DNA from: Ensifer sesbaniae
Lineage (GTDB): Bacteria; Pseudomonadota; Alphaproteobacteria; Rhizobiales; Rhizobiaceae
NCBI RefSeq assembly: GCF_013283665.1
Contig: NZ_JABEKU010000002.1
Coordinates: forward strand, 1,548,863-1,612,862
Reading direction: 5' to 3'
DNA length: 64,000 bases
Part shown: piece by piece, positions 10,197 to 26,573 of the stretch
Layout: each line of letters begins with the position of its first letter
How positions within the stretch are numbered: position 1 is the stretch's first letter
Notes under the pieces: generated by a model
What the model saw: only the letters and a program-made list of their open reading frames with translations
Told to the model about the DNA's origin: nothing
The model's database searches: none
Translations under genes and position numbers: made by a program

Positions 10197-10296
10197 CTCG
10201 CTGACTCCTCGGAGCGAACATTGACAGCTATTGTAATCTCGTCCACGGTCGAAAAATTCACCTATTTTCTGCAATTTTGGCCATGGATTGTGTCAG

Positions 10297-10809: not shown

Positions 10810-11502
10810 TTACATGACGCCGAAACGTTCGAACGCCTCGACGGTGCTCATGCCGGCCTCGATCGCGAGGCGAACCTTGTTTTCGGTTTCGGCCTTTTCC
10901 AGGGCTAGCGCGATTGCCTCCCGTTCCGCCTCGCGCGGAATGACGAGCACGCCGTCGCGGTCGCCGAAGAGAATGTCGCCCGGCCGGATACGGATGCCGC
11001 CGATCTCGATCGGAATGCCGTAGTCGACGACCTTGCCACGCGGGCCCTGGTCCTGTGCATAGGATCCGTAGCAGAAGGTCGGGAAATCAAGCGCAAGAAT
11101 GCAGGCGCTGTCGCGGCAATAACCGTCGCAGATCGCACCCGCTGCCTTCAGCTTCAGCGCCCGCGTCGACATCAACTCGCCCCAGACGGCATAACGCGGT
11201 GAGGAGCCGGAGCAGACATAGATCTCGTTGGGCTTCAGGCTATCGAGCGCGTGGAACATCAGGCCGAACGGCTTGGCGCTGAACGCCGAGTTTCCGCTCG
11301 CCTCGGCGGCCGCGAAGAAATCGGCCTCGAGCACCGGCATCGCCCGCCCGATGGCAACCATGTCATCACGCAATGCCCGGATCTGCGGCGGCAGGAACTG
11401 GTGCTGCAGGCCCATCGTATCGAGAATGTCGCCGACCACAGCGGTAAACAGCCGGCTGCGCATGGCGGCAAACAGTTCGGCATCGTCTTCAAAATGGTTC
11501 AT
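10810..11502 (-). CDS. RraA-family protein (possible hydroxy-oxo-acid aldolase)
   Basis: This protein of about 230 residues is of the RraA/HMG-aldolase-like fold. Typical stretches are TAVVGDILDTMG at the N-terminus, the G-x-C-R-D region AGAICDGYCRDSACIL, and the terminal PGDILFGDRDGVLVIPREAE. Family members include the RNase E inhibitor RraA and class II pyruvate aldolases for 4-hydroxy-4-methyl-2-oxoglutarate; many paralogues in sugar-acid operons have no proven role. The ATG at 11502 is chosen over an alternative at 11514. The gene follows uxuA with only 8 bp between, so it is co-transcribed and probably acts on an acid produced in the same pathway. Confidence 0.8.
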   Translation of the reverse strand: MNHFEDDAELFAAMRSRLFTAVVGDILDTMGLQHQFLPPQIRALRDDMVAIGRAMPVLEADFFAAAEASGNSAFSAKPFGLMFHALDSLKPNEIYVCSGSSPRYAVWGELMSTRALKLKAAGAICDGYCRDSACILALDFPTFCYGSYAQDQGPRGKVVDYGIPIEIGGIRIRPGDILFGDRDGVLVIPREAEREAIALALEKAETENKVRLAIEAGMSTVEAFERFGVM

Positions 11503-11510
11503 TTCTTCCC

Positions 11511-12710
11511 TCAAGCCTTGTGCGCCATGGCGGTCGCGATGCCCTGCATGACGCCTCTGATTTCCGCGAGGCCCTTCAGTCGACCGATCAGCGAATAGCC
11601 GGGATTGATCCGCTCCTTGCCGATATCGTCGGCCAGCAGATGTCCGTGGTCTGGCCGAAGCGGGATCTGCCAGTCGGCGCTGCCATCGCGCGCACGACGT
11701 TCCTGTTCCTGCATCAGCGCGAAGATCACCGCCGGCATATCGCTCGATCCGCCGAGATGGTCCGCCTCGTAGAACGAGCCGTCCTCCTCGCGTTGGACGT
11801 TGCGCAGATGGGCGAAATGAATGCGCGGGCCGAATTCGCGCACCATGGCCGGCAGGTCGTTGTCGGCGCGGGTGCCGTAGGAGCCGGTGCAGAAAGTGAT
11901 GCCGTTGGCCGGGCTGTCGACAGCGGCGAGGATGCGCCTGACATCGGCTGCCGTCGAGACGATGCGCGGCAGGCCGTAGAGCGAAAAGGCCGGATCATCG
12001 GGGTGAATGCAAAGCCGGATACCGACGTCTTCGGCGACCGGTACGATCTCCCCGAGGAAGCGCGCCAGGTTGGCATGCAGATCGTCGGCCGTCACGCCGT
12101 CATATTCGGCAAGGGCGGCCAGAAAGCTTGCCCGGTTGAACTGGCGCTCGGTTGCCGGCAGGCCGGCAATGAGATTGCGCTCGATCCGGTCGATCTTTGC
12201 CTGGTCCATCTCATCGAGCCGCTGGCGCGCGAGGAAAATCTGCCTCTCGGAGTAGCTGTCTTCGACATGTGGGCGCTTCAACACGAAGAGGTCATAGGCG
12301 GCAAAGTCGACCGCATCGAAGCGAAGCGCAAAGCCGCCATTCGCCAAGGGCTGCATCAGCTCGGTGCGCGTCCAGTCGACCACCGGCATGAAGTTGTAGC
12401 AGACGATGCTTATGCCCGCCCGCGCCAGGGCGCGAAGCGTGTCCTTGTACCAGCCGATGTAGCGAGCGCTGTCGGCGGTCGCGAGCTTGATCGAATTGTG
12501 CACCGGAATGCTCTCGACGACGCTCCAGCGCATGCCCGCGGCTTCGATCAGCGCCTTTTGCGCCAGGATCGCTTCGTCGGGCCACGGCGAGCCGTCGTAG
12601 ATGTGGTGCAGCGCCGAGACGATCCCTGTCGCGCCTGCCTGCCGGATATGGCTGAGCGGCACCGGATCGTTTGGCCCATACCAGCGAAAGCACTCTTCCA
12701 TCAGTCTCAT
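11511..12710 (-). CDS. uxuA: Mannonate dehydratase
   Basis: UxuA removes water from D-mannonate to give 2-keto-3-deoxy-D-gluconate in hexuronate catabolism. The 399-residue length and motifs fit the family: the N-terminal [20 protein letters not shown], the HNSIKLA and [15 protein letters not shown] segments, the metal region IHPDDPAF, the CTGSYGTR loop and the [11 protein letters not shown] strand. A CAGGAG ribosome binding site precedes the ATG at 12710. It is divergent from the GntR/FCD regulator; the interval between them carries palindromic operators. A second, more distant family member is encoded at 18239-19351 under the same likely regulator. Confidence 0.93.
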
Positions 12711-12880: not shown

Positions 12881-12905
12881 ATAAAGCATCGCAGGGAGGA
12901 TGGTG

Positions 12906-13640
12906 GTGAGCAGTTCGGTACGGGAAGATGCATTGTCGGGCGTAGAGGCCGTGGAGCCGGGTAGGACTTCGGCCGTCGATCGCCTCGTCGAGCAGATCCG
13001 CGACATGATCTCCGAGCGCGGTCTCGGCATCGGCGATGCGCTGCCGACCGAGCGCGACCTCGGTGAGCAGTTCCAGGCCGGACGCAATACCGTGCGCGAG
13101 GCGCTGCAGGTGCTGCGCGCCTATGGCATGGTCGAGACCCGGCCGAAGGTCGGCGCCGTCATCAGCGGCGGACACGGCGAGGCCATCCGCCGGCTTTTCG
13201 CCTTCCACAACGGAATTTCACCGGACTCTTTTCGCGACCTGCAGGGTTTCCGGCGCATCATCGAGACCGGTGTCGGCGAGCATATCATCCTGACGGCTGG
13301 GGATGACGACTTAGAGCGGCTGGACGCGATCAATGCGCGGATCCTGGAGGCCGAGACCGTCGAGGATGCGGCGCGCTGCGATTACGAGTTTCATTCGGCG
13401 ATCGTCGAGCTCTCAGGCAACCGCACGACGCTGGCCGCCTACCACATGCTGCGCTCGGTGATCGAGGAGGTCATGCGGCTCGGCAAGGCAGAGCGCACGG
13501 TGCATGCGGAAACCTTCGAGGCGCACGCCGAAATCATCCGGGCGCTGAAGGCTCGTGATCGCATCGCCTACGTCTACCTGATGAGCCGCCATTTGGAGTT
13601 CGGCATCCGGTTCGTCGATGCCGCGCCAGGCGGCCAGTAA
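12906..13640 (+). CDS. GntR-family regulator, FadR/FCD subfamily
   Basis: The protein has 244 residues with an N-terminal winged HTH (IGDALPTERDLGEQFQAGRN then TVREALQVLRAYGMVE) and a C-terminal all-helical FCD ligand domain whose metal residues are visible (DYEFHSAIVELSGN and later ETFEAHAEIIRAL). FCD domains usually bind small carboxylates such as sugar acids. The GTG at 12906 is preferred because GGGAGG then lies six bases upstream; the ATG at 12900 would sit directly on that site. It stands between the uxuA-rraA pair and the long rightward transporter/catabolic set, with three related half-sites around it, so it probably represses both until the acid is present. Confidence 0.88.
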   Translation: MSSSVREDALSGVEAVEPGRTSAVDRLVEQIRDMISERGLGIGDALPTERDLGEQFQAGRNTVREALQVLRAYGMVETRPKVGAVISGGHGEAIRRLFAFHNGISPDSFRDLQGFRRIIETGVGEHIILTAGDDDLERLDAINARILEAETVEDAARCDYEFHSAIVELSGNRTTLAAYHMLRSVIEEVMRLGKAERTVHAETFEAHAEIIRALKARDRIAYVYLMSRHLEFGIRFVDAAPGGQ

Positions 13641-13760: not shown

Positions 13761-14720
13761 ATGAGCAACATGAAACGTCTGGCGCTTGCCGCGCTACTTG
13801 CCTCTGTCAGCTTTGCGCCGGGCGCGGCCTTCGCCGGCGGCAAGGCGATCGCCGGCATCGTCTTTCAGCAGGACCAGTATTTCCGCGGCATTCAGATCGG
13901 CATGGAGAAGGCAGCGGAAGCTGCCGGAGACGAGCTCCTTGCCGGCAACAGCGACAGCAAGCTGGAGAAGGAAGCCCAGCTGATCGACACCTATATCGCC
14001 CGCGGCGTGAACTCGATCGTCGTGGCGCCGCTTTCGGCCGACGCTTCGGTGCCTGCGCTGAAAAAGGCGCGCGACGCCGGCATCACGGTGGTGACCTACG
14101 GCACCTCGGCCAACGGCGACGTCGCCCAGGCCACCGTGATGAGCTCGGATCGCGATATCGGCATCGGTACCGGCAAGGCCGCGACCGATTTCCTAAAGAC
14201 GCTCGGCAACGGCGAGAAGGTGAAGATCGGCACGCTGGCCTTCAAGGCGCTGCTGCCTGAGCAGTCGAATGCCCGCGTCGATGGGTTCCTGAGCGTCGTC
14301 AAAGATCAGGTGGACATCGTCGCCCAGCAGGATGCCTGGCTTGCCGAGAAGGCGCTGGCAGTTGCAAGCGACATGCTGACGGCCAATCCCGATATCCGAG
14401 TGATCTATGCCGCCAACGAAGGCGGCACGATCGGCGCCGTTCAGGCGGTGAAGAAGGCAGGCCTCGAGGGCAAGGTTTTCGTCTTCGGCACCGACGGTTC
14501 CGAGCAACTCGCCAACATGCTCCTGAATTCGGACAACGTGCTGCAGGCAACGACGGCGCAGCAGCCGCTCGAGGTTGGCAAGCAGGCGATCGAAGCCGCG
14601 CAGAACCTGCTCGACGGCAAGAAGATCGAGACGAAGGTCAACGTTCCGGTTCTGCCTCTGACCCGCGCCGACGCGGAAGGCGTCGCTGCCTACAAAGAAG
14701 GCCTCAAAGCCTTGAAGTAA
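13761..14720 (+). CDS. Sugar ABC transporter periplasmic binding protein (RbsB/type I fold)
   Basis: A 319-residue precursor with a signal peptide (about residues 1-23, MSNMKRLALAALLASVSFAP onward) and a Peripla_BP_4 sugar-binding fold (IAGIVFQQDQYFRGIQIGME and later FGTDGSEQLANMLL). The ATG at 13761 follows GGGAGGAG at a good distance; an in-frame ATG at 13698 lies before any signal sequence. It is the first gene of a three-component CUT2-type importer (with 14793-16337 and 16334-17326), which normally takes up monosaccharides. Context suggests the cargo is an aldose that the downstream enzymes oxidise. Confidence 0.9.
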   Translation: MSNMKRLALAALLASVSFAPGAAFAGGKAIAGIVFQQDQYFRGIQIGMEKAAEAAGDELLAGNSDSKLEKEAQLIDTYIARGVNSIVVAPLSADASVPALKKARDAGITVVTYGTSANGDVAQATVMSSDRDIGIGTGKAATDFLKTLGNGEKVKIGTLAFKALLPEQSNARVDGFLSVVKDQVDIVAQQDAWLAEKALAVASDMLTANPDIRVIYAANEGGTIGAVQAVKKAGLEGKVFVFGTDGSEQLANMLLNSDNVLQATTAQQPLEVGKQAIEAAQNLLDGKKIETKVNVPVLPLTRADAEGVAAYKEGLKALK

Positions 14721-14792
14721 GGGCCCGAAAGTGAACTGGGCGGCGGGAGCATTGTCCCATCGCTCCTTCACCGCGCACAGCAGGAAATCCGC

Positions 14793-16337
14793 ATGAGCTA
14801 TCCGCAACCAAGGTCAGCCGCGTTGCAAGGGGTGCAGGGACGGCTGGACTTTCGGGCCGTGACCAAGCGTTATGGCCCGACCGTCGCCCTTTGCGAATTC
14901 ACCCACAGCTTCGCGCCCGGGAAGGTGCATGCCCTGATGGGCAAGAACGGCTCGGGCAAGTCGACGCTAGTCAAGCTTCTCGCTGGCGTCACCGAACCGA
15001 CATCCGGCACGATCAGCGTTAACGGCGAGGACCGCCACTTCACCTCGCCGCATGACGCCTTCGCCGCCGGCATCGTCACCGTGCATCAGGAGCTCTCGCT
15101 GGTGCCGGAACTTTCGGTCGGCGAGAACATCTTTCTCGGCCGGCTGCCGCATCGGCGGCGCGCCGGTTTCAGCGTCGTCGACTGGACGGGCCTGCACCGG
15201 CGCGCCGGCGAACTGCTCGCCGACATGGGACTTGCGCTCGATTCCCGCCAGCCGGTCTCCGCCCTCAGCGTCGGCCAGCAGCAGGTGGTGGAGATCGTCA
15301 AGGCGATGTCCTTCAACCCGTCGATCCTGCTGCTCGACGAGCCGACCTCGGCGCTCGCCACCCGCGAGGTCAAGCAGCTCTTTGCGCTGATCGAACGCTT
15401 GCGCGCCCGCCGCGTGACGATGATCTACATCACCCACCGCATGAGCGAACTCTTCGAGATCGCTGACACCTGTACGGTGATCCGCGACGGCCACTATATC
15501 GGCTCGGTCGCGATGAAAGAGACGACGCCTTCGGCGATCGTCGGAATGATGTTCGGCGATGCGGCGCGTGCCACGCGTCCGCCGCGGCGCGAGCTCGATC
15601 GCACCAAGCCGGTGCTCGAAGTGCGCGAACTCAGCCGGTCAGGGCATTTCCACGACGTCTCCTTCGACCTCTATCCCGGCGAAATCCTCGGCATCGCCGG
15701 CCTGCTTGGCGCCGGGCGCACGGAACTGATGCGGGCGATTTTCGGCGCAGACCGGATCGACGGCGGTTCCGTCAGGCTCGATGGCCGCATCATGACCGGC
15801 GCAAGCCCGCGCGATATGCGCAAGGCGGGGCTTGGCTACACGCCGGAAAACCGCAAGGAGGTCGGGCTCGTGCAGTCGCGCTCGACCGCCGACAACCTCT
15901 GCATGGCGAGCCTCGGCCCGATCTCCAACAGGGGCTTCATCTCGCGTCGGCGCGAACAACCGCATGTGCGCCGCCAGATCGCCGATCTGCATATCAAGTG
16001 CGGCGACCCGGAACTGCCGGTGTCGTCGCTTTCCGGCGGCAACCAGCAGAAGGTGGTGATCGGCAAATGGCTGAACCGGCAGCCCTCGGTGATGTTCTTC
16101 GATGAACCGAGCCGCGGCGTCGACGTTCAGGCCAAGCGCCAGATCTTCGACATCATCTGGCAGAAGGCGGCCGACGGCCTTTCCAGCATCTTCGTATCGA
16201 CGGAACTCGAGGAGGTCCTCGAAGTCGCCGATCGCATCCTGGTGATGCACCACGGCGCCGTTGTCGCCGAAGTGGATCCGACGAGAACCGATCTTACCGA
16301 ACTCTACGGCCTGTGCATGGAAGGGGCCAAGCGATGA
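14793..16337 (+). CDS. Sugar ABC transporter ATPase with two ABC domains (RbsA/MglA type)
   Basis: This 514-residue protein is the duplicated ATPase of CUT2 sugar importers. The first domain has a full Walker A (MGKNGSGKST), signature (SALSVGQQQVVEIVKA) and Walker B (ILLLDEPTSAL). The second has the degenerate Walker A GLLGAGRTEL usual for this family, the signature LSGGNQQKVVIGKWL and Walker B FFDEPSRGVD. Its stop overlaps the permease start by four bases (ATGA at 16334), so the two are translationally coupled. It sits on the inner face of the membrane and powers import of the sugar bound by the 13761-14720 protein. Confidence 0.95.
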   Translation: MSYPQPRSAALQGVQGRLDFRAVTKRYGPTVALCEFTHSFAPGKVHALMGKNGSGKSTLVKLLAGVTEPTSGTISVNGEDRHFTSPHDAFAAGIVTVHQELSLVPELSVGENIFLGRLPHRRRAGFSVVDWTGLHRRAGELLADMGLALDSRQPVSALSVGQQQVVEIVKAMSFNPSILLLDEPTSALATREVKQLFALIERLRARRVTMIYITHRMSELFEIADTCTVIRDGHYIGSVAMKETTPSAIVGMMFGDAARATRPPRRELDRTKPVLEVRELSRSGHFHDVSFDLYPGEILGIAGLLGAGRTELMRAIFGADRIDGGSVRLDGRIMTGASPRDMRKAGLGYTPENRKEVGLVQSRSTADNLCMASLGPISNRGFISRRREQPHVRRQIADLHIKCGDPELPVSSLSGGNQQKVVIGKWLNRQPSVMFFDEPSRGVDVQAKRQIFDIIWQKAADGLSSIFVSTELEEVLEVADRILVMHHGAVVAEVDPTRTDLTELYGLCMEGAKR

Positions 16338-17326
16338 CACTTGTGAGCCAAACGACCGAGGCCGGCGGACAGAAAACGCCGCTCAAGTTCCTCAAGACCT
16401 ATCCGATGGAGATCATTCTCGCGGCGCTGATGATCTTCCTGATCCTGGTCGCGCCCGGCTTTGCCTCGACCAGCAACGTCTTGAACGTGCTGCGCACGGT
16501 CTCGATGCTCGGCATCATCGCCTTCGGCATGACGGCGGTCATCATCAGCGGCGAGATCGACCTTTCGGTCGGGGCGGGCGCAGCACTTGCCGGCTGCATC
16601 GTTGCCTGGTTTGCCGACCGCTTCACCGATGCGCTCGGCGATTGGGGCGCGGTCACGGTCGGTTTTGCCGTGGCGCTGCTGCTCGGTTTCATGCTCGGCT
16701 ATCTCACTGGCCGTTTCCGGCAATGGTTCAACGTGCCGACCTTCATCACCACGCTTGCGCTTTTTGCGGCGCTCCGCGGGGTCGCCAATCTCATCACCGG
16801 CGGCTTCCCGATGTCGTCCTTCCCGCTCGGCTTCGATTTCCTCGGCGGCGGCTACCTCTTCGGCATTCCGTTCCCGGTCTATATCTTTGCGCTCACCTTT
16901 GCCGGCATGCATTTCCTGATGAAGTATACGAGCTTCGGCCGCGAGGTTTATGCCGTCGGCGGCAACATGGAGGCAGCCCGCCTCTCCGGCATCGACATCT
17001 GGAAGGTAAAGGCGCTGACACTGGGGCTCACTGGCGCGCTCACCGCCGTCTCCGGCACGCTGATTGCCTCGCAGATCGGCGCCGGAACCGGGACGACGGC
17101 AACGGGCATGGAGCTCGACGTCATCGCGGCCGTGATCATCGGCGGCACCTCGCTCTTTGGTGGCAAGGGCCGTATTTGGGGCACGCTGATCGGGGTCCTG
17201 TTCCTCGGTTGCATTTCCAACGGCATGACGCTGATGAATGTCAGCGAATATTGGCAATACGTCGTGCGCGGCGGGATCATTCTCGGCGCCGTGCTCCTGA
17301 ACCAGGTTCTGGAACGGGTGCGCTGA
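16334..17326 (+). CDS. Sugar ABC transporter permease (RbsC type)
   Basis: The protein is 330 residues with about 8-10 membrane segments. It contains family stretches such as GMTAVIISGEIDLSVGAGAA, near the N-terminal third, and the coupling region VYAVGGNMEAARLSGIDIWK. These are typical of BPD_transp_2 (RbsC/XylH) permeases. The ATG at 16334 overlaps the ATPase stop, which fixes the start; a frame opening at 16313 would overlap more. It forms the membrane channel of the importer and ends the transport part of the operon; a hairpin follows at 17334. Confidence 0.94.
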   Translation: MTLVSQTTEAGGQKTPLKFLKTYPMEIILAALMIFLILVAPGFASTSNVLNVLRTVSMLGIIAFGMTAVIISGEIDLSVGAGAALAGCIVAWFADRFTDALGDWGAVTVGFAVALLLGFMLGYLTGRFRQWFNVPTFITTLALFAALRGVANLITGGFPMSSFPLGFDFLGGGYLFGIPFPVYIFALTFAGMHFLMKYTSFGREVYAVGGNMEAARLSGIDIWKVKALTLGLTGALTAVSGTLIASQIGAGTGTTATGMELDVIAAVIIGGTSLFGGKGRIWGTLIGVLFLGCISNGMTLMNVSEYWQYVVRGGIILGAVLLNQVLERVR

Positions 17327-17333
17327 GACCGGC

Positions 17334-17353
17334 GCGGGATGCTCGCATCCCGC
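17334..17353. repeat. GCGGGATG palindrome (REP-like copy)
   Basis: GCGGGATG (17334-17341) pairs with CATCCCGC (17346-17353) around CTCG. The same GCGGGATG/CATCCCGC arms recur at 32182, 34542 (left arm), 43968 and 62160. Here it separates transporter genes from catabolic genes and could stabilise the upstream transcript. Confidence 0.55.
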
Positions 17354-17433
17354 GGCCCTCATGAAAATCGATCACGCTGATGATCTTGGGTCGCCCGCGA
17401 TCCAAATCATCGCGATCCATCGCGGAGACAATC

Positions 17434-18219
17434 ATGACTGAATTCAAAGGAAAAATCGCACTCGTCACCGGCACGTCCGGTATCGGCCTCGCCTCGGCGA
17501 TCCGCCTTGCCTCGTCAGGTGCCATCGTGCTCGCGTGTGGCAATGACCTTGCCACCAACGAGAGGTTCGACAAGATCGCCAGCGAGCGCAATCTGCCGAT
17601 GTCGACGCGGCTGACGGATGTCTCGGTCGAGGCGGAGGTGGAGGCGGCCGTCCGTGAGGCAGTGCTGCGCCACGGCGGCCTTGATATCATCGTCAATGCC
17701 GCGGCCGTCCATCCCTATGGCACGGTAGTCGATACCAGCGCCGAGAGCTTTGCGCGCTGCCTCTCGGTCAATGTCGGTTCGATCTATCTGACCGGCCGCT
17801 TCGGCATTCCCGAAATGGTCAAGCGTGGCGGCGGCGCGATCGTCAACATTTCTTCGGTGCAGGGGCACGCCTGCCAGCAAAACGTTGCCGCCTATGTCGC
17901 CTCCAAGGGGGCGATCCACGCGCTGACGCGCGCCATGGCGCTCGATCACGCCGCGGCCAAGGTCCGGGTGAACTCGGTCAGCCCCGGGTCGGTGCGCACG
18001 CCTTTGCTTTCGCTTGCGGCCCGCACCTATGGCGGCGAGGGCGTCAGCGAGGCGGAAGCCTTTGCTCGCTTCGGTGCCGCGCACCCGATCGGCCGCATTG
18101 GCGAACCAGAGGAGGTGGCCGAACTGGTCGCCTACCTCGCCTCCGAGCGCGCCGCCTTCGTCACCGGCTCGGATTTCCGCATTGACGGCGGCCTCACCGC
18201 TGGCATCGGCGTCAAGTAA
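17434..18219 (+). CDS. SDR-family NAD(P)-dependent dehydrogenase
   Basis: A 261-residue classical short-chain dehydrogenase. It has the nucleotide motif TGTSGIGLAS near residue 12, the NAA motif (DIIVNAAAVHP), the catalytic serine (NISSVQGHA) and the YxxxK motif in YVASKGAIHALTRA, followed by the usual PG motif VSPGSVRTPLL. It is the first enzyme gene after the sugar importer and precedes a dehydratase, a lactonase and an aldose epimerase. In that setting it is a good candidate for oxidising the imported aldose to its lactone, or for oxidising a keto-deoxy acid. The start ATG 17434 is favoured over an upstream in-frame ATG at 17380. Confidence 0.85.
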   Translation: MTEFKGKIALVTGTSGIGLASAIRLASSGAIVLACGNDLATNERFDKIASERNLPMSTRLTDVSVEAEVEAAVREAVLRHGGLDIIVNAAAVHPYGTVVDTSAESFARCLSVNVGSIYLTGRFGIPEMVKRGGGAIVNISSVQGHACQQNVAAYVASKGAIHALTRAMALDHAAAKVRVNSVSPGSVRTPLLSLAARTYGGEGVSEAEAFARFGAAHPIGRIGEPEEVAELVAYLASERAAFVTGSDFRIDGGLTAGIGVK

Positions 18220-18238
18220 TCACACGAGGAATCGACAA

Positions 18239-19351
18239 ATGAAGATCGGCCTTGGGCTCTACCGGGAGCAACTCACTCCGGATAACTTTCAGTTTGCCTT
18301 GCAGGCAGGCGCGACCCATGTCGTCGCGCACCTGACCAACTATTTCGCGGGCAAGGATCCGAAGATCGACAGCGGTGATCAGGGCGGCTGGGGCGATTGC
18401 TCCAGCGATCGGCTCTGGACTTACGATGAGTTGTCGGCGCTGGTGAAGGACGTGCGCGCCGGCGGCCTGGAGGTGGCGGCGATCGAGAACTTTTCGCCGC
18501 GCTTCTGGCATGATGTGCTCCTGGACGGGCCTGAGCGCGCGCAGCAGATCGAGGGGCTGAAGCAGCTCATCCGCGACGCCGGCCGCGCCGGCATTCCCTG
18601 CATCGGCTACAATTTCTCGCTCGCCGGCGTCTATGGCTGGACCCGTGGCCCCTATGCCCGCGGTGGCGCCGAATCCGTCGGCTTTGGCGTCGAAAACAGC
18701 ATCGCGCCGAGCCCGGATGCGCCGATCCCGGACGGCATGGTGTGGAACATGCGGTACCGCCGCGGCATCCCCGGTGTCGCCCCGGTTTCCGTCAGCTCGG
18801 CGGAGCTTTGGGACCGCCTCAGCCACTTCCTGAAGGCGGTTGTACCGGTCGCCGAAGAGGCGGGCGTCGTACTTGGCGCTCACCCTGACGATCCGCCGGC
18901 GGAGGAACTGCGCGGCACGGCGCGGCTCGTCAACCGACCGGAGAAATACGATCGGCTGATGGCGATCGTCGACTCGCCCTCGAACGGCCTGGAACTCTGC
19001 CTCGGCTCGCTGCAGGAGATGCCGGGCGGCGATATCTACGACCATGTCCGCCGCTTTGCCCGCTCCGGCCGCATCGGCTACATCCATTTCCGCAACGTGC
19101 GCGGAAAGATGCCGCGCTATGTCGAGACCTTCGTCGATGAGGGCGATATCGACATGGCCGAGATCATCCGCATCCTGCGCGACGAGAACTACCGGGGCGT
19201 GATGATCCCCGACCACACGCCGGCCATGACCTGCGGTGCCTCCTGGCATGCGGGCAAGGCTTTTGCGCTCGGCTACATGAAGGCGCTGGTGCAGAACGCC
19301 GAAGCGCTCGGGCCATCGCGCTCGATCCCTGCAAGCATGGCGGCGGAATAG
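18239..19351 (+). CDS. UxuA-related sugar-acid dehydratase (mannonate dehydratase family)
   Basis: A 370-residue TIM-barrel protein related to UxuA but not orthologous to the copy at 11511-12710. It keeps the metal/substrate segments CIGYNFSLAGVYGWTRGP, LGAHPDDPPAEEL, ELCLGSLQEMPG and IHFRNVRGKMP, which align with the HPDDP and FRNV regions of mannonate dehydratase. The ATG at 18239 has the site ACGAGGA in front and follows the SDR stop by 19 bp. It should dehydrate an aldonate to a 2-keto-3-deoxy acid. Two different family members around one regulator suggest two substrates or two epimers. Confidence 0.78.
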   Translation: MKIGLGLYREQLTPDNFQFALQAGATHVVAHLTNYFAGKDPKIDSGDQGGWGDCSSDRLWTYDELSALVKDVRAGGLEVAAIENFSPRFWHDVLLDGPERAQQIEGLKQLIRDAGRAGIPCIGYNFSLAGVYGWTRGPYARGGAESVGFGVENSIAPSPDAPIPDGMVWNMRYRRGIPGVAPVSVSSAELWDRLSHFLKAVVPVAEEAGVVLGAHPDDPPAEELRGTARLVNRPEKYDRLMAIVDSPSNGLELCLGSLQEMPGGDIYDHVRRFARSGRIGYIHFRNVRGKMPRYVETFVDEGDIDMAEIIRILRDENYRGVMIPDHTPAMTCGASWHAGKAFALGYMKALVQNAEALGPSRSIPASMAAE

Positions 19352-19360
19352 GAGGCAGCG

Positions 19361-20260
19361 ATGGCACCCGAGCTTATCTGTGTCGCGCCCGTCGGCGACC
19401 GCTGCGGTGAGGGCGCCGTCTGGTCCGCGGACGAGGCGGCTGTCTACTGGACGGACATCAACCGGTTCCTCGTGCATCGCTACGACGAGGCAACTCAAGC
19501 GGTCAGAACCTGGTTGTTCGACGAACCGGTGGTGGCGATCTCGCTGACAAATGAAGCCGGCCGCCTGCTCGTTGCTCTCGGTTCGAAACTCCTCTGGTGG
19601 TGGCCGGAGACCGATCGGCGCGAAGATCACGGCTTCCGCCTACCCGGCGCGCCGCGGGTACGGCTCAATGATGGCCGCACCGATCCCGCCGGAAACTTCT
19701 GGGTCGGTTCGATGAAGAACAATGTCCTGCCCGATGGCGAGCTCGGCGAAGCGGGCCCGGGCGAGGGCATTCTCTTTCGCATCGCGCCTGACGGGACTGT
19801 CACCGAATGGCGCCAGGGGCTCGGCATCTCCAACACGCTCTGCTGGAGCCCGGACCAGCGCACCTTCTACTTCGCCGACACGCTGGCAAACGAGATCTAT
19901 GCCTTCGACTATGACGCGGCCGAGGGGGCGATTTCAGGCGAACGGCATTTCTTCACCGGATTCGATCGCGGCTCGCCCGATGGCTCGACGATCGACAGCG
20001 AAGGCTTTCTCTGGAACTGCCGTTTCGGCGGAAGCTGCATTGCCCGGATCGCACCCGATGGCCGTCTTGCCGAAGTAATCGACGTGCCGGTGACCAACAT
20101 CACCACCTGCACCTTCGGTGGTGCCGATCTGAAGACGCTCTATATCACCACCGCCAGCATTCTTTCCGGCCCCGGTGAACGCCTCGCCGGCAGCCTTTAT
20201 GCCATGCGCGTCGAAGTTCCCGGCCTTCCGGAAAACCGGTTTGGAGTGGCAACCAGGTGA
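19361..20260 (+). CDS. SMP-30/gluconolactonase-family sugar lactonase
   Basis: A 299-residue six-bladed beta-propeller of the SMP-30/LRE family. Metal-site strands are recognisable: GEGAVWSADEAAVYWTDI at the N-terminus (Glu ligand), RLNDGRTDPAGNFWVGSM (Asn and Asp), ISNTLCWSPDQRTFYFAD (Asn) and GSPDGSTIDSEGFLWNC (Asp). These enzymes hydrolyse aldonolactones to aldonates in the cytoplasm, the step that should follow aldose oxidation. It begins nine bases after the UxuA-like stop with an AGGAGG site and its stop overlaps the next start (GTGA at 20257), so it is within one operon. Confidence 0.9.
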   Translation: MAPELICVAPVGDRCGEGAVWSADEAAVYWTDINRFLVHRYDEATQAVRTWLFDEPVVAISLTNEAGRLLVALGSKLLWWWPETDRREDHGFRLPGAPRVRLNDGRTDPAGNFWVGSMKNNVLPDGELGEAGPGEGILFRIAPDGTVTEWRQGLGISNTLCWSPDQRTFYFADTLANEIYAFDYDAAEGAISGERHFFTGFDRGSPDGSTIDSEGFLWNCRFGGSCIARIAPDGRLAEVIDVPVTNITTCTFGGADLKTLYITTASILSGPGERLAGSLYAMRVEVPGLPENRFGVATR

Positions 20261-21330
20261 GTGCGGTGACGACACGACGCGCGCTTGCCTGGGCGCATGG
20301 CTGCCTTTCGGTGCAGTCGCTCGGCGGCATGCTCGGCCCCGTGCTGTTTTTGCTGCCGGACGGGCGGCACGTCAGTCCCTTGCATGTGGCACCTTGGGGT
20401 AGTGATCCCGAGCGCGACACGCTGCCCGAAATCCTGCAAGAATTGCGCGGCGAATGGCCCTGCGTCCCCTTCGGCAGCGACGCCGACCGGGCGCTTCCCG
20501 CAGGCTGGTCTGCGACAGGAGAAAGTTTCGATGGCGCCGGCGTGCCCCATGGCCATAGCGCCAATGCTCATTGGGATTGGAGCGCTTGCGACGACCGTCA
20601 GATCACCATGGAATGCCGGTATCCGGAGGACCATCCGATCGGCCTTTTGCGGCGGAGGATTATGCCGGATCCAAGCGCGGCCGCCATCGACATCACCCTG
20701 GAAATCGAGGCGCGGCGGCCATGCCGGCTGCCGATCGGCCTGCATCCGACGTTCCGGCTGCCGAGCCGCCCGGGTTCGGTCACTATCGAACCCGGTGCCT
20801 ATGATCGCGTCTTGAGTTTTCCCGGCGACGTCGAACCGGGCGCGGCCTTGTTCTCGCTCGATCGGCAATGGCCATCGCTTGGCAAAGTCGAGACCCGTAG
20901 CGGTGCGACAATCGACGCCTCGCAGGTGCCGCTCACCGAAGAAACCGAGGATCTGCTGCAGCTCTGCGGTGTCGACGGCAGCCTGGCGCTCCACTATCGC
21001 GACGAGGGGTTTCGCGCGCGGCTCACCTGGCAGAAGGATCACTTTCCGAGCCTGCTACTCTGGTTCAGCAATCGCGGCCGCAAGGCCTATCCCTGGAACG
21101 GGCGGCACGTGGCGCTCGGCCTCGAGCCCATCGCCTCTGCTTTCGATCTCGGACCGGCGGTCTGCACGGCGGCTAACCCGCTGGCATTATCGGGCGTTGC
21201 CACGGCGATTGCGTTCGAGCCGGGTCAGATCTTCATCACCCACTACCGACTTTCCGTCGAAGTCGCTCCTATCAGCAATCCTGCCGGGCACGCGGCCACA
21301 ACAAGCCTAGCTGCAGTTCGGCAAGTTTAG
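20257..21330 (+). CDS. Aldose 1-epimerase-like protein
   Basis: A 357-residue galactose-mutarotase-fold protein. The central region GLHPTFRLPSRPGSV and late strands (LLLWFSNRGRKAYPWN, ALGLEPIASAFD) fit aldose-1-epimerase-like enzymes, which interconvert alpha and beta sugar anomers. The GTG start overlaps the lactonase stop by four bases. In this operon it would supply the anomer accepted by the dehydrogenase. The canonical catalytic His/Glu pair is not obvious to me beyond GLHPTF and GLEPI, so a neighbouring family in the same fold is possible. Confidence 0.75.
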   Translation: MSAVTTRRALAWAHGCLSVQSLGGMLGPVLFLLPDGRHVSPLHVAPWGSDPERDTLPEILQELRGEWPCVPFGSDADRALPAGWSATGESFDGAGVPHGHSANAHWDWSACDDRQITMECRYPEDHPIGLLRRRIMPDPSAAAIDITLEIEARRPCRLPIGLHPTFRLPSRPGSVTIEPGAYDRVLSFPGDVEPGAALFSLDRQWPSLGKVETRSGATIDASQVPLTEETEDLLQLCGVDGSLALHYRDEGFRARLTWQKDHFPSLLLWFSNRGRKAYPWNGRHVALGLEPIASAFDLGPAVCTAANPLALSGVATAIAFEPGQIFITHYRLSVEVAPISNPAGHAATTSLAAVRQV

Positions 21331-21339
21331 TCGCATCAC

Positions 21340-21375
21340 TGCTGGCCGACTAATGCCTAGCTGGTCAGCATTTTT
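21340..21375 (+). terminator. Hairpin followed by T-run after the epimerase gene
   Basis: TGCTGGCC (21340-21347) pairs with GGTCAGCA (21363-21370, one G-T pair), followed at once by TTTTT. It is the best rho-independent terminator in the plus-strand sugar-acid set and lies between the epimerase (stop 21330) and the kinase (start 21390). It may partly separate the two halves. Confidence 0.6.
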
Positions 21376-21389
21376 CATTGGGGCAAGTC

Positions 21390-22421
21390 ATGTCTAGTCT
21401 TGCATGCATTCTCGGGGCCGGAAATGTGGATCCCGCCATTCTTGAATTCCTTCACAGGTCCGGGCAGGTCCAGGATAAGCAGGCGTGGGCGATTGAGCCG
21501 CTGACCGGCGGCGTCGCATCGGACATTTGGAAGGTCACGACGAATGAAACGAGTTTCGTCGTCAAGAAGGCGCTGGCGAGCCTGCGCGTAGCCCAGGACT
21601 GGAAAGCGCCGGTGACGCGAAACGCCAGCGAGGTCGAATGGATGCTCGAGGCCGCAAAGGTCGCTCCGAATGCCGTTCCGCGCATTCTTGCACATGATCC
21701 GTCGCTCGGTGCATTCGCCATGACCTACTTCAATCCTTCCGAAAATCCCGTCTGGAAGGAGGAACTGCGTAATGGGCGCGTCGATGTGACGTTCGCGCGT
21801 CGTCTGGGGGGCGTTGTTGCGGCGATCCATGCGGCGACCGCGCACTCGCAAGATATCGGCCGCCGGTTCGCCAATGACGAGGTCTTTCACTCGATCCGCC
21901 TTGAGCCCTATCTTGAAGCGACGGCGCAGGTGCATCCTGATCTTGCTGCACCGCTTCTTGCACTGTCGCGGGACGTGATGAACACGAAGACCGCACTTGT
22001 TCACGGGGACGTCAGCCCAAAGAACATTCTGATTGGCCAGGATGGTCCGATCATCCTCGATGCAGAATGTGCTTGGTATGGCGATCCATGCTTCGATCTT
22101 GCCTTCTGTCTCAATCACCTGCTGCTGAAGTGTATCTGGCGACGGCAGGATGCGGCGGAGCTTCTGCACAGTTTCGAGGCTCTCGTGAAATCATATCTCA
22201 CGGGAGTGACCTGGGAGCCGGCAATTGCGCTTGAGGCCCGGGCTGCGAGGCTCTTGCCGGCTCTTCTTCTGGCGCGCGTCGACGGAAAGTCGCCGGTCGA
22301 ATACATCACAACAAGCACAGACAAGGACTTCGTCCGCCAATTTGCCCGTAACCTGATCCAGTCACCCCCAGCCACCCTGGCCGATGTAACGCGAGCCTGG
22401 GCCGAGGAACTCTGCAAATGA
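21390..22421 (+). CDS. APH-fold small-molecule kinase
   Basis: A 343-residue protein of the aminoglycoside/choline phosphotransferase fold. It shows the Brenner motif HGDVSPKNIL (H205-L214) and the metal aspartate in ILDAECAWYGDPCFDLAF (D224), plus the ATP-lysine strand TNETSFVVKKAL. Nothing suggests antibiotic resistance: its stop overlaps the start of an enolase paralogue (22418), followed by an FAH-family hydrolase and an SDR. It therefore more likely phosphorylates a hydroxyl on a metabolite that the enolase then dehydrates, such as a glycerate or a longer sugar acid. The ATG at 21390 follows GGGGCAAG. The substrate is unknown. Confidence 0.75.
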   Translation: MSSLACILGAGNVDPAILEFLHRSGQVQDKQAWAIEPLTGGVASDIWKVTTNETSFVVKKALASLRVAQDWKAPVTRNASEVEWMLEAAKVAPNAVPRILAHDPSLGAFAMTYFNPSENPVWKEELRNGRVDVTFARRLGGVVAAIHAATAHSQDIGRRFANDEVFHSIRLEPYLEATAQVHPDLAAPLLALSRDVMNTKTALVHGDVSPKNILIGQDGPIILDAECAWYGDPCFDLAFCLNHLLLKCIWRRQDAAELLHSFEALVKSYLTGVTWEPAIALEARAARLLPALLLARVDGKSPVEYITTSTDKDFVRQFARNLIQSPPATLADVTRAWAEELCK

Positions 22422-23737
22422 ACGACACGCAAATCGCCGGGATCAAGGGCCGGCGCGTTTGGGACTCGCGGGGAAACCCGACCGTCGAGGCCGAAATTAC
22501 GCTTGCCAGCGGAGCGCAAGGCCGCGCGATCGCACCGGCCGGCGCTTCGAGAGGAACCCGCGAAGCAACTGACTTGCGTGATGGCGGCAGCAGCTTGTGC
22601 GGGAAGGGCGTTGCAAAGGCCGTGGCAAATATCGACGGGCCGATTGCGAGGGCGCTGATCGGAAGGGACGTCTTCGATCAATCGGGAGCAGACGCTGCCC
22701 TCTGCGCGCTCGACCCGTCGCCGTCAAAGGCGGTTCTCGGCGGCAACGCCACAGTCGCCGTGTCACTTGCGGTATTGCACGCCGCTGCTGCGGCCGCCCG
22801 TGAGCCGTTATGGCGCCGTGTTGCCAGCGCATATGGCCGGCAGCCGTCCATCCCTCTGCCCGAGATCCAGATATTCGGTGGAGGGGCTCACGCAGGCAGG
22901 CGCGTGGACGTGCAGGACTTCATGATCATGGTTCCGGGCGCCTCGAGTTTCGAAGAGGTCATGGAGATCACCAATGCCGTTTACTTCGCCGCCGGCGATC
23001 TTATGGCGAGCAGAGGCCGGCTTGCGGGGGTGGCGGACGAGGGCGGATGGTGGCCCGCTTTCGATAGCAACGAAGAGGCGCTCGAGACGTTATGCGACGC
23101 TATCGTGAAAGCGGGCGAGACACCGGGCGACCGGGTCGTCATCTCGCTTGACGTTGCTGCCTCGGAGTTCGGACGAGGTGGCCGCTACAAATTGGCGCTG
23201 GAAAATCGCGAACTGGATTCGGGCGAGATGATCGACCAGCTGGGCCGATGGCTCGATACCTACCCGATCGCGTCGATCGAAGACCCTCTGGCCGAGGACG
23301 ATATCGAAGGCATGGCCGCATTTACGACCCGTTTCGGGGGGCGTGTCCAAATAATCGGCGACGACTATCTCGTGACAAACGCGGCTCTCGTCCGCGATGC
23401 AGCCAGCAATGGCGCCTGTAATGCCGTACTGATCAAGGTCAATCAGGTAGGAACAGTCACGGAAGCCGTGGAAACCTATCTCACCGCCGAAAGGGCCGGT
23501 TGGCGATCGGTCGTGTCGGCACGCTCGGGAGAAACGGAGGACATATCCATCAGTCATCTCGCCATAGGGCTCGGCGCCGGCCAGCTGAAGGTTGGTTCAT
23601 TCACGCGCTCGGAGCGGATGGCCAAGTGGAATGAGTGCATTCGAATCCAGGAGCAGCTCGGTGCCAGCGCGTTCGTGGCCGGCGCTCCGCTGCACAACAC
23701 CTGGTGGTCTAAAAAGAACAATAGGACAACAGTATGA
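22418..23737 (+). CDS. Divergent enolase paralogue
   Basis: A 439-residue protein that aligns along its length with enolase (2-phosphoglycerate to PEP). Conserved positions are the metal ligands D245 (ISLDVAASEF), E288 (SIEDPLAEDD) and D315/D316 (IIGDDYLV), the catalytic bases E208 (VADEGGW) and K340 (LIKVNQVGT), K391 (QLKVGSF), and R369-S370. It departs where housekeeping enolases are nearly invariant: the mobile loop reads PAGASRG instead of PSGASTG, the QEFMI glutamate is D167 (QDFMI), and the SHRSGE histidine is A368 (SARSGE). Start ATG overlaps the kinase stop. It is probably an active relative with a shifted substrate, not the glycolytic enzyme. Confidence 0.85.
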   Translation: MNDTQIAGIKGRRVWDSRGNPTVEAEITLASGAQGRAIAPAGASRGTREATDLRDGGSSLCGKGVAKAVANIDGPIARALIGRDVFDQSGADAALCALDPSPSKAVLGGNATVAVSLAVLHAAAAAAREPLWRRVASAYGRQPSIPLPEIQIFGGGAHAGRRVDVQDFMIMVPGASSFEEVMEITNAVYFAAGDLMASRGRLAGVADEGGWWPAFDSNEEALETLCDAIVKAGETPGDRVVISLDVAASEFGRGGRYKLALENRELDSGEMIDQLGRWLDTYPIASIEDPLAEDDIEGMAAFTTRFGGRVQIIGDDYLVTNAALVRDAASNGACNAVLIKVNQVGTVTEAVETYLTAERAGWRSVVSARSGETEDISISHLAIGLGAGQLKVGSFTRSERMAKWNECIRIQEQLGASAFVAGAPLHNTWWSKKNNRTTV

Positions 23738-24576
23738 AATTGGTCCGGATAGGCGACATCGGTCGCGAAAAACCGTGCATGCTCGACGAGAACGGCAAAG
23801 CATGGGACGTATCCTCGTTGATCGGGGACGTCACGCCCGAAACGATTGGAACTGTAAGCGCGCAGCTGGCAGACGCCGATTTCGACGCACTTCCCGAGGT
23901 TGCGGTCTTGTCGACGCGTATCGGCGCCCCCATCAAGCAACCGCGCAACATTTGGTGCATCGGCCTCAACTATTCGGACCATGCTGCTGAAGCCGGGCTG
24001 CCGGTGCCTGCTGAACCAATCCTCTTCAACAAGGCGGCCGGCACCTATTGCGGTCCGAACGATCCAATCCTCTATTCGAGGACGATGGCCAAGCTCGACT
24101 GGGAGGTCGAGCTCGGCATCGTCATCGGCAAGCGGGCGTTGAATGTTTCGCGTAGCGAGGCGATGGACCATGTCTTCGGCTACACGGTTGTCAACGATGT
24201 CTCGGAACGCGCCTGGCAGATGGAGCGCGGCGGCCAATGGGTGAAGGGCAAGAGCTTCCCAAACTTCTGCCCGACGGGTCCGTGGCTCGTCACCCGTGAC
24301 GAGGTGCCGGATCCGCAGGCGCTTTCGATGTGGCTCGACGTCAACGGCGAACGCATGCAGGCGGGCACGACCGCGCGCATGATCTTCGATGTCGCGACCA
24401 TCGTCTCCTACATGAGCGAGTTCTGCGTGCTTGAGCCCGGCGATCTCATCTGCACCGGCACACCGCCAGGCGTCGGCATGGGCAAGAAGCCGCCGCGCTA
24501 TCTGAAACCCGGCGACGTGGTGGAACTCGGCATCGACCGGCTCGGCCGCCAGCGCCAGATCGTTCAGTCACTCTAG
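23734..24576 (+). CDS. Fumarylacetoacetate hydrolase-family enzyme (diketo-acid hydrolase-like)
   Basis: A 280-residue FAH-family protein with metal ligands in LDWEVELGIVIG (E124, E126) and VVNDVSERAWQ (D155), the family strand IGLNYSDHAAEAGLPVPAEP and the terminal LICTGTPPGVGMG loop. The FAH group includes 2,4-diketo-3-deoxy-L-fuconate hydrolase, which splits a diketo acid into pyruvate plus a hydroxy acid. The close partnering with an SDR resembling 2-keto-3-deoxy-L-fuconate dehydrogenase (24598-25347) favours that reaction type. ATGA overlap with the enolase stop shows coupling. Other FAH activities (hydratase, decarboxylase, ureidoglycolate lyase) remain possible. Confidence 0.85.
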   Translation: MKLVRIGDIGREKPCMLDENGKAWDVSSLIGDVTPETIGTVSAQLADADFDALPEVAVLSTRIGAPIKQPRNIWCIGLNYSDHAAEAGLPVPAEPILFNKAAGTYCGPNDPILYSRTMAKLDWEVELGIVIGKRALNVSRSEAMDHVFGYTVVNDVSERAWQMERGGQWVKGKSFPNFCPTGPWLVTRDEVPDPQALSMWLDVNGERMQAGTTARMIFDVATIVSYMSEFCVLEPGDLICTGTPPGVGMGKKPPRYLKPGDVVELGIDRLGRQRQIVQSL

Positions 24577-24597
24577 GCTTACAAAAGGGGTCTCGCC

Positions 24598-25347
24598 ATG
24601 AATGGAAAGACGGAACGTTTGGCCGGACGCGTGGCCGTGGTCACGGCGGCCGGCCAGGGCATCGGCCGTGCCGTCGCCGAGCGGCTGATATCGGAGGGCG
24701 CCGAGGTTCACGCCAGCGACATCAATGCCGACCTGCTCGCCACCCTTGACGGCGCCGCGACGACGCGGCTCGATGCGACCGATCACGCGGCGGTCGCCGC
24801 CTATTTCGAGGCCTTCGCACGGATCGATATCCTGGTGCATGCCGTCGGTTACGTGCATCAGGGCACGATCGAGGAATGCTCGGCTGCCGACTGGCGCCGC
24901 TCGGTAAACATCACCCTCGACAGCGCCTATAACGTCATCGCCGGCGCGGTCCCGAAGATGAAGGCTGATGGCGGCAGCATCATCACCATCGGATCGGTCG
25001 CCTCCTCGATCAAGGGCTTTCCGCGGCGCGCCGCTTACGGCGCCGCCAAGGGCGGCGTCATCGGGCTGACCAAGGCAGTCGCCGCCGACTACGTGTCCCT
25101 GGGCATTCGCTGTAACTCGGTCTGCCCCGGAACGGTCGCATCGCCCTCGCTGGAGGAACGCATCGGCGAACTTGGCGAGAAACTCGGAAGCCGGGACGAG
25201 GCTTACCGGTCCTTCATCAGCCGACAGCCGGCCGGGCGTTTCGGCACGGTGGAGGAGGTCGCTGCCGTCTGCGCCTTTCTCGCCTCCGACGAGGCTGCCT
25301 TCATCACCGGCCAGGCGATCAACATCGACGGCGGCATCACGATCTGA
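24598..25347 (+). CDS. SDR dehydrogenase, 2-keto-3-deoxy-L-fuconate dehydrogenase-like
   Basis: A 249-residue classical SDR. Motifs are TAAGQGIGRAVAE (cofactor), the catalytic serine in TIGSVASSIKG, YGAAKGGVIGLTKA (Tyr/Lys) and the C-terminal RFGTVEEVAAVCAFLASDEA. The AAGQGIG form and the late SRQPAGRFGT stretch recall 2-keto-3-deoxy-L-fuconate dehydrogenase and its relatives, which make the 2,4-diketo acid cut by an FAH hydrolase. It starts 21 bp after the FAH gene and ends the plus-strand set; a perfect hairpin follows. The exact sugar acid is inferred only from neighbours. Confidence 0.82.
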   Translation: MNGKTERLAGRVAVVTAAGQGIGRAVAERLISEGAEVHASDINADLLATLDGAATTRLDATDHAAVAAYFEAFARIDILVHAVGYVHQGTIEECSAADWRRSVNITLDSAYNVIAGAVPKMKADGGSIITIGSVASSIKGFPRRAAYGAAKGGVIGLTKAVAADYVSLGIRCNSVCPGTVASPSLEERIGELGEKLGSRDEAYRSFISRQPAGRFGTVEEVAAVCAFLASDEAAFITGQAINIDGGITI

Positions 25348-25463: not shown

Positions 25464-26573
25464 TCAGGCCGACAGCGCCTTGAACTCGGAAAGGATGGCG
25501 TCGCCCATCTCTGTCGTGCCGACCTTCTTCGCACCTTCGGCCATGATGTCGCCGGTGCGGATGCCCTGGTCGAGCACGTTGGCGATCGCCTTCTCCAGAT
25601 TGTCGGCGTCCTTCACCAGGTTGAAGGAGTAGCGCAGGCACATGGCGAAGGAGGCGATCATCGCGATCGGGTTGGCAATGCCCTTGCCGGCGATGTCCGG
25701 GGCCGAACCATGCACCGGCTCGTAGAGCGCCTTGCGCTTGCCGCTGACCGCATCCGGGGCGCCGAGCGAGGCCGACGGCAGCATGCCGAGCGAGCCGGTC
25801 AGCATCGCCGCCACGTCCGACAGCATGTCGCCGAACAGATTGTCGGTGACGATGACGTCGAACTGCTTCGGCTGGCGCACCAGCTGCATGCCGCCGGCAT
25901 CCGCCAGCATGTGCTCGAGCTGGACGTCGGCGTATTTCGCCTTGTGCGTCTCGGTCACCACCTGGTTCCACAGCACACCCGACTTCATGACGTTGCGCTT
26001 CTCCATCGAGCAGACGCGGTTCTGCCGCGTGCGGGCAAGCTCGAAGGCGACGCCGGCGATGCGCTCGATCTCGTAGGTGTCGTAGACCTGGGTGTCGATG
26101 CCGCGCTTCTGGCCGTTGCCGAGATCGATGATCTCCTTCGGCTCGCCGAAATAGACGCCGCCGGTCAGCTCGCGCACGATCAGGATGTCGAGGCCTTCGA
26201 CGAGCTCGGGCTTCAGCGACGAGGCGCTGGCGAGCGCCGGATAGCAGATCGCCGGCCGCAGGTTGGCGAAGAGCTCGAGGTCCTTGCGCAGGCGCAGCAG
26301 ACCGGCTTCCGGGCGGACCTCATAGGGCACCGCATCCCACTTCGGGCCGCCGACGGCGCCGAACAGCACCGCATCGGCGGCCAGCGCCTTTGCCATGTCC
26401 GCCTCCGAGATCGCCTGGCCGTGGGCGTCATAGGCCGAACCGCCGACCAGGCCCTCGTCCGTCACGAAGCCGGCGCCAAGCTCGGCATTCATGTAGGCGA
26501 TGATCTTGCGGACTTCCGCCATGGCTTCCGGGCCGATGCCGTCGCCGGGAAGGATGAAAAGTTTGCGAGCCAT
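25464..26573 (-). CDS. leuB: 3-isopropylmalate dehydrogenase
   Basis: The 369-residue protein carries all LeuB signatures: [16 protein letters not shown] at the start, [20 protein letters not shown] (substrate Arg residues), [15 protein letters not shown], the catalytic [12 protein letters not shown], the metal motif [20 protein letters not shown] and the NAD motif [19 protein letters not shown]. The usual reaction is NAD-dependent oxidative decarboxylation of 3-isopropylmalate in leucine synthesis. Placement is odd: it follows an amidase and a small ACT-like gene at the end of a peptide-transporter operon, with no leuA, leuC or leuD nearby. It may be a second copy serving a related beta-hydroxy acid, or the leucine gene displaced here. 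Confidence 0.92.

Follow-up and report, generated by a model that had tools for sequence, protein, structure and literature searches.

A 64,000-nucleotide stretch of the Ensifer sesbaniae genome (the window, part of a 2.35-Mb contig in a 6.9-Mb genome) carries, at 13761-25347 on its + strand, a sugar-acid operon of eleven genes. A GntR regulator gene lies on the 5' side of the operon. Two of its products, a kinase of the aminoglycoside phosphotransferase (APH) fold, KIN, and an enolase paralogue, ENO2, make up a pair that is close to obligate and extends beyond this operon. The gene content, this pairing, the replacement of active-site residues in ENO2 and the coexistence of the pair with the ordinary enzymes are directly observed. 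The cassette most likely phosphorylates a 2,3-dihydroxy acid at C2 and dehydrates the product to phosphoenolpyruvate (PEP). Its substrate in this operon is probably the glycerate that a fumarylacetoacetate hydrolase (FAH)-family enzyme would release, and the pair probably turns an acid unusable by ordinary metabolism into a central metabolite. We tentatively favour a route in which the operon provides an upper pathway to glycerate, and KIN and ENO2 then lead from L-glycerate through 2-phospho-L-glycerate to PEP.

Enolase is among the most conserved metabolic enzymes. The existence of a large ENO2 subfamily, with two pocket residues replaced and a dedicated kinase nearly always adjacent, implies that many bacteria and some archaea carry out a reaction not yet recognised. 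Were L-glycerate the substrate, this reaction would fill a gap by bringing the L-glycerate half of L-hexoses into central metabolism. Still more cautiously, we propose that KIN and ENO2 constitute a widespread and undescribed two-step module from L-glycerate via 2-phospho-L-glycerate to PEP, in which an APH-fold L-glycerate 2-kinase and a handedness-switched enolase would be portable among catabolic operons.

Pairing of the kinase and the enolase paralogue

Loci were collected through the kinase: 80 on contigs of species genomes (the top 80 among the kinase relatives, which number at least 569), 34 at the level of the order (from 33 of 397 genomes drawn evenly from the order, the window's own locus excluded) and 18 from plasmid records. 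The plasmid loci were hand-picked after viewing the kinase list (60 of 113 records) and the enolase list; three of them (L004, L005 and L008) were fetched through their enolase match, the same records being also in the kinase list. Counts over 132 loci omit L021, a near copy of the window, and counts over 97 loci omit both L021 and the frameshifted L008. Genes in unannotated loci were called with a codon-usage script, which may miss FAH genes and neighbours unlike the references and which missed the kinase gene of L095. An initial scan of genome contigs with a single kinase sequence found no relative.

ENO2 lies in the same locus as the kinase in 127 of the 132 loci (18/18 on plasmids, 76/80 on genome contigs and 33/34 at the order level). 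The two genes are separated by at most 200 bp in 114 of the 132, always on the same strand (114/114). For three of the five kinase loci without ENO2, no more than 162 bp separate the kinase match from a contig end. The kinase-enolase linkage, which the first-pass annotation of this DNA had named as a point on which its proposal could be refuted, is strong and wide. Among the hosts, as judged from taxonomy and from the titles of the records, are Alpha-, Beta- and Gammaproteobacteria, Actinomycetota, Bacteroidota, Acidobacteriota, Chloroflexota and haloarchaea.

Quick trees of 41 hand-picked pairs placed the window's ENO2 with L004, L005, L181, L187, L190-L193 and L197 (Shimodaira-Hasegawa-like approximate likelihood ratio test, SH-aLRT, 99). 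The window's kinase groups with L026 (SH-aLRT 97), in a clade other than that of its ENO2. From this discordance, the pair appears to have been reassembled from two lineages, kinase and enolase having been re-paired. Such re-pairing across lineages suggests a shared chemistry.

On two haloarchaeal plasmids (L009 and L020), the pair stands beside a paralogue of ilvC (ketol-acid reductoisomerase) and several genes of the mandelate racemase family.

A remodelled enolase active site

ENO2 has the full-length enolase fold and retains the metal ligands, base and phosphate ligands of the glycolytic enzyme. It differs from it by two replacements in the pocket, by its kinase partner and by its position on a separate branch: in a quick tree, one branch (SH-aLRT 100) splits the 41 ENO2 from 10 canonical enolases. 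The active sites of 93 ENO2 (among them that of the window and one with gaps in several columns) were compared with those of 31 canonical enolases, namely the host's own and the 30 top-scoring of the order whose frame holds SHRSGE or RSGET. Residue numbers follow what we take to be the numbering of yeast enolase.

The glutamate equivalent to Glu168 is an aspartate in 92/92 ENO2 and a glutamate in 31/31 canonical enolases. His373, a histidine in all 31 canonical enolases, is replaced by alanine in 90 of 92 ENO2 and by glycine in the other 2. From work on the yeast enzyme, we take these two residues to flank the C3 hydroxyl. The adjacent loop of ENO2 gains Arg161 (69/92) and Arg162 (79/92). The equivalents of K345, K396, D246, E295, D320, R374, S375, H159 and S39 are kept wherever the residue is present, and that of Glu211 in 91 of the 92 ENO2 having a residue there; the window's protein keeps Lys345, Lys396, Glu211 and the Mg ligands. 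The C3-facing part of the site would thus be changed, while carboxylate, metal and phosphate handling look intact. The retention of Glu211 also suggests hydroxide as the leaving group. Across the collection, the QD motif is found in 124/124 and SARSGE in 120/124 ENO2, the four without SARSGE belonging to L010, L022, L051 and L064. For the order-level set (33 loci with ENO2), each motif occurs in 32/32 of those passing a 300-residue filter. The predicted model of ENO2 is weak in the active-site loops, with a predicted local distance difference test (pLDDT) below 50 at residues 44-63, 156-161 and 205-210.

Presumably, Glu168 and Glu211 are the equivalents of Glu163 and Glu204 of Mycobacterium tuberculosis enolase. 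Published work on that enzyme treats Glu163 and Glu204 as catalytic and describes alanine mutants that were made and crystallised; there, active-site alanine mutants are non-functional, with one contrasted exception.

With 451.6 bits, ENO2 is above the cut-off (300) of TIGR01060, the phosphopyruvate hydratase equivalog. Automatic annotation is therefore unable to separate it from ordinary enolase, and the annotated plasmid records usually name it 'phosphopyruvate hydratase'. The ordinary enolase step of the first-pass annotation sits poorly with the near-invariant replacement of two catalytic-pocket residues, even though the protein still passes that model.

On an Enterobacter chuandaensis plasmid (L010, 6253-8978) there is a divergent pair, its kinase sharing 38% and its enolase 34% identity with those of the window, and this enolase has Lys in place of the catalytic Glu211. 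This pair heads a run with a U32 peptidase, an aminotransferase, an M14 peptidase and an MFS gene, and the run looks biosynthetic.

Coexistence with the ordinary enzymes

Among the 397 genomes of the order, at least two enolases were found in 32 of the 34 genomes with KIN and in 13 of the 363 without (one-sided Fisher p 2.5e-34, copy numbers taken by eye from the search output). The idea that ENO2 substitutes for an absent housekeeping enolase was rejected on this count. The two KIN genomes with a single enolase (G032 and G078, of completeness 90 and 76, in 770 and 420 contigs) show an ENO2-like score only. Of the 34 KIN genomes, the window's own included, 32 encode an ordinary D-glycerate kinase: 29 have the MOFRL type, and 3 of the other 5 the GlxK type. 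The window's genome itself encodes a canonical enolase and two glycerate kinases of the MOFRL type.

In such genomes, a further route for D-glycerate would be redundant; a route for another substrate would not be. The glycerate-based lower pathway proposed at first is not supported in its original form: nearly every genome with the pair is already equipped with both an ordinary D-glycerate kinase and an ordinary enolase. We favour L-glycerate over D-glycerate because the latter is already served and because the ENO2 pocket is changed at the same two positions.

A kinase from outside the glycerate kinase families

The reaction proposed for KIN is that of the glycerate 2-kinases of the MOFRL/GckA type and of GlxK, and it is by family that KIN differs from them. 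Its Pfam matches are to APH, TCAD9 and fructosamine-kinase models only, neither MOFRL nor Gly_kinase being among them, and its five solved profile matches include no glycerate kinase. The AlphaFold model of KIN (pLDDT 90.4) finds methylthioribose kinase as its best Foldseek match and closest solved fold, with a template modelling (TM) score of 0.82 and about 14% identity; against TIGR01767, the model of that enzyme, KIN reaches 74.5 bits, far below the cut-off of 275. An HGDxSPKN motif is found in 130/130 kinase sequences longer than 250 residues. No characterised relative points to a substrate, and KIN would act as a 2-hydroxy-acid kinase. A role as drug-modifying kinase was considered and rejected, KIN having an enolase partner and lying often within catabolic operons.

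The proposed upper pathway

We infer every reaction of the route, and its stereochemistry. The CUT2 importer would take up an aldohexose or its acid. SDR1 would oxidise the aldohexose to a lactone, to be opened by the SMP-30 lactonase, the UxuA-family protein would dehydrate the aldonate and SDR2 would oxidise C4. Cleavage of the resulting 2,4-diketo acid by the FAH-family enzyme would give pyruvate and glycerate, the 2-hydroxyl of glycerate would be phosphorylated by KIN, and ENO2, with its remodelled C3-hydroxyl pocket, would remove water to form PEP. By established pathway chemistry, a 2,4-diketo-3-deoxy acid that derives from a hexose would be cleaved to pyruvate and glycerate.

An aldose dehydrogenase, a lactonase and an aldonate dehydratase are all encoded in the operon, as assigned at the family level. 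The diketo-acid hydrolase route of the first-pass annotation gains support from the FAH protein, whose best solved match is 8gsr, an L-2,4-diketo-3-deoxyrhamnonate hydrolase (293 bits, the runner-up having 193). Its score against NF053535, 370 bits, is below the cut-off of 500, and we claim the family rather than an exact substrate. A second FAH protein, 57% identical to that of the operon, is encoded on the same contig as the window (C2, 345054-345887). SDR2 reaches the cut-off of none of the 25 NCBIfam models listed; homologues 65-73% identical to it accompany KIN and ENO2 in L004, L005, L008, L181, L190 and L197. For the UxuA-like dehydratase, membership of the family holds (PF03786, 176 bits), while its 110.7 bits against the TIGR00695 equivalog stay below the cut-off of 199.55. 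The supposed aldose epimerase matched no Pfam model even at an E-value of 10, no NCBIfam model and no PDB sequence in a meaningful way.

D-mannonate and L-gulonate both have the C2/C3 arrangement required by UxuA. As both would suit the enzyme, deducing D or L from the dehydratase was rejected. A sulfo-sugar route through sulfolactate was also set aside: the operon proteins gave no match to glycosidase or sulfonate-exporter families, and Glu211 is kept.

The same set of enzymes, with SDR oxidation of an aldose, a lactonase, a dehydratase, a second SDR and an FAH hydrolase, is known from the non-phosphorylative diketo-hydrolase pathway for L-fucose and L-rhamnose. The operon differs from it in its UxuA-family dehydratase and in the kinase and enolase paralogue that would act after the FAH step. 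The 6-deoxy sugars lead to lactate, which offers an enolase no leaving group at C3.

Neighbourhoods and candidate substrates of the pair

Several points weigh against a route from L-glycerate. The true UxuA encoded next to the operon would yield D-configured 2-keto-3-deoxygluconate (KDG), hence D-glycerate. The base Lys345 is retained and may preserve the D geometry, the change of Glu168 might simply yield a slow enolase, and ENO2 is accepted by the model of the ordinary enzyme. In 36 of the 97 loci, a member of the D-2-hydroxyacid dehydrogenase family is encoded no more than three genes from the pair, which would speak for a D-acid if this protein supplies the kinase. FAH, the presumed source of glycerate, is found within three genes of the pair in 12 of the 97 loci; at the order level, 3 of the 34 loci had a recognised FAH. 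The pair does not depend on it, and the earlier expectation of a kinase-enolase-FAH linkage is not supported in its original form.

The neighbouring mannonate dehydratase, the D-2-hydroxyacid dehydrogenase and the TIGR01060 score would all suit a cassette acting on D-glycerate, with KIN as a non-orthologous D-glycerate 2-kinase and ENO2 as a co-regulated enolase; such a cassette would give the operon an ordinary lower pathway of its own. D-glycerate would also suit three loci (L006, L164 and L165) in which genes for PEP carboxylase, a 2-hydroxyacid dehydrogenase and the kinase follow each other directly, a row reminiscent of the serine cycle in its lower half. We nonetheless regard this reading as the least unlikely of several unlikely alternatives, given that 32 of 34 KIN genomes already hold an ordinary D-glycerate kinase, and as many a second enolase, and that a near-invariant replacement of two pocket residues is not expected from drift or mere duplication.

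PEP carboxylase is also encoded in L019, with one extra gene in between, and in L013, some 8 kb upstream, so that 5 of the 132 loci have it in all; no PEP carboxylase is encoded in the window's own genome. This neighbour fits with PEP as the product of ENO2, and it speaks against a second alternative, in which the substrate is a C3-substituted or longer 2,3-dihydroxy acid, such as a tetronate, or bears another leaving group, and the product is an analogue of PEP. Both Glu168Asp and His373Ala shrink the side chain around what we take, after yeast enolase, to be the site of the C3 hydroxyl, and the arginines gained in the nearby loop could agree with such a substrate. So could L018, whose cluster has an HpaD-like dioxygenase (290.9 bits, cut-off 321.4) instead of recognised sugar genes. 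Cleavage of a hexose-derived 2,4-diketo acid by FAH would give a C3 acid, however, and we consider this second alternative doubtful.

As the operon is a sugar-acid operon, KIN might instead phosphorylate a C5-C6 aldonate at C2, with ENO2 dehydrating the product. The first-pass annotation had offered such a 2-phospho-aldonate as its alternative. The operon already has a dehydratase of another family, and many pairs stand in loci where no sugar-acid gene was recognised, next to genes of a housekeeping type, for instance those for PdxH, an AFG1 ATPase or riboflavin synthesis; this reading is a poor fit and appears very improbable.

The neighbours of the pair vary. Both FAH and an SDR2 homologue are found with it in Roseibium, Paracoccus, Rhizobium sp. 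RCAM05350, Brucella haematophila, Rhizobium setariae, Embleya and genome G051. A mandelate-racemase-type protein is encoded in two pair loci (L045 and L181).

Six related clusters (L003, L006, L012, L013, L018 and L019) combine varying subsets of a VOC-family protein (the HpaD-like one in L018), a cupin, a zinc alcohol dehydrogenase, FAH, a 2-hydroxyacid dehydrogenase and the KIN-ENO2 pair. PEP carboxylase is present in three of them (L006, L013 and L019), and the clusters probably represent a catabolic pathway.

Relation to published work

Within the library of papers searched, literature searches combining enolase, aminoglycoside phosphotransferase, fumarylacetoacetate hydrolase and operon returned nothing, in line with the initial remark that no described operon with this combination was known. 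They likewise yielded no 'L-glycerate kinase', no L-galactose together with L-glycerate and no enolase or kinase route for L-glycerate. A search on His373, Glu168 and Glu211 brought only unrelated work, and in another search the ten matches listed of 132 showed no comparable enolase paralogue. For L-2-phosphoglycerate, only work on CpgD was found, and the part of it available to us mentions no natural source of the compound. Both enantiomers of 2-phosphoglycerate are commercially sold (PMC13228409).

Bacterial use of L-hexoses by oxidation to aldonates would be shared with Luteolibacter LG18, in which L-glucose and L-galactose are used via 5-keto-L-gluconate, D-tagaturonate, D-altronate and KDG (PMC12632266). 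The terms 'enolase', 'hydrolase' and 'L-glycer' do not occur in its main text (PMC12632266).

Operon layout and setting

Every gene of the operon was found where the first-pass annotation had placed it, in the same one-strand order (Table 1), and its account of mostly overlapping or near-touching genes is borne out, as 7 of the 10 joins overlap or leave a gap of at most 21 bp (-25, 19, 9, -4, -4, -4 and 21 bp). The other three measure 72, 107 and 59 bp, the last two assuming ATG starts at 17434 (SDR1) and 21390 (kinase). A scan for promoters and terminators of the operon gave no signal above shuffled sequence.

Table 1. Genes of the operon and of its immediate surroundings in the window
Feature	Position	Strand	Evidence
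RraA-like protein (aldolase/decarboxylase family), adjoins the UxuA gene	10810..11514	-	PF03737 111 bits; conserved in S. chiapasense
True UxuA-family mannonate dehydratase, divergent from GntR	11511..12710	-	TIGR00695 490 bits, cut-off 199.55; conserved in L021
GntR/FCD-family regulator, likely operon regulator	12900..13640	+	PF00392 and PF07729; adjacent and conserved in L021
CUT2 sugar-binding protein	13761..14720	+	PF13407 (Peripla_BP_4) 150 bits; best NCBIfam RbsB 99 bits, far below its cut-off
CUT2 ABC ATPase	14793..16337	+	PF00005; AraG/RbsA-like, below cut-off
CUT2 permease	16313..17326	+	PF02653 (BPD_transp_2)
SDR1, putative aldose 1-dehydrogenase	17434..18219	+	SDR Pfam; best PDB 3vtz glucose 1-dehydrogenase 180 bits
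UxuA-family dehydratase, divergent	18239..19351	+	PF03786 176 bits; best PDB mannonate dehydratase 132 bits
SMP-30/gluconolactonase-family lactonase	19361..20260	+	PF08450 (SGL) 265.6 bits
Protein of unverified family	20257..21330	+	earlier label aldose epimerase; no Pfam, NCBIfam or PDB support
KIN, APH-fold small-molecule kinase, putative 2-hydroxy-acid kinase	21390..22421	+	PF01636 63 bits
ENO2, enolase paralogue with remodelled C3-hydroxyl pocket	22418..23737	+	PF00113 293 bits; Enolase_N and Enolase_C full length
FAH-family hydrolase (FAA_hydrolase), putative 2,4-diketo-3-deoxy-aldonate hydrolase	23734..24576	+	best PDB 8gsr 293 bits
SDR2, putative 2-keto-3-deoxy-aldonate 4-dehydrogenase	24598..25347	+	SDR Pfam; DHRS6-like and other SDRs in PDB

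The closest plasmid record is Sinorhizobium chiapasense pA, with 97.7% identity over the 3.6 kb queried. The gene order of the operon is repeated in that species (L021), and Rhizobium sp. RCAM05350 (L008) has the operon genes, minus the 'epimerase', in two convergent runs, several of them frameshifted. Because it recurs in S. chiapasense and, as two runs, in RCAM05350, the arrangement is not due to chance. The divergent genes for UxuA and the RraA-like protein, the latter below the cut-off of all six NCBIfam models listed, possibly form an alternative branch of the GntR regulon.

Directly after the operon, on the - strand (25464-26573), a PF00180 protein is encoded that we take to be a second LeuB-like protein (459.4 bits, against 459.6 for the copy on the largest contig). 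On the other side, a long open reading frame at 8697-10779, divergent from an Lrp/AsnC regulator, presumably encodes a class-V aminotransferase.

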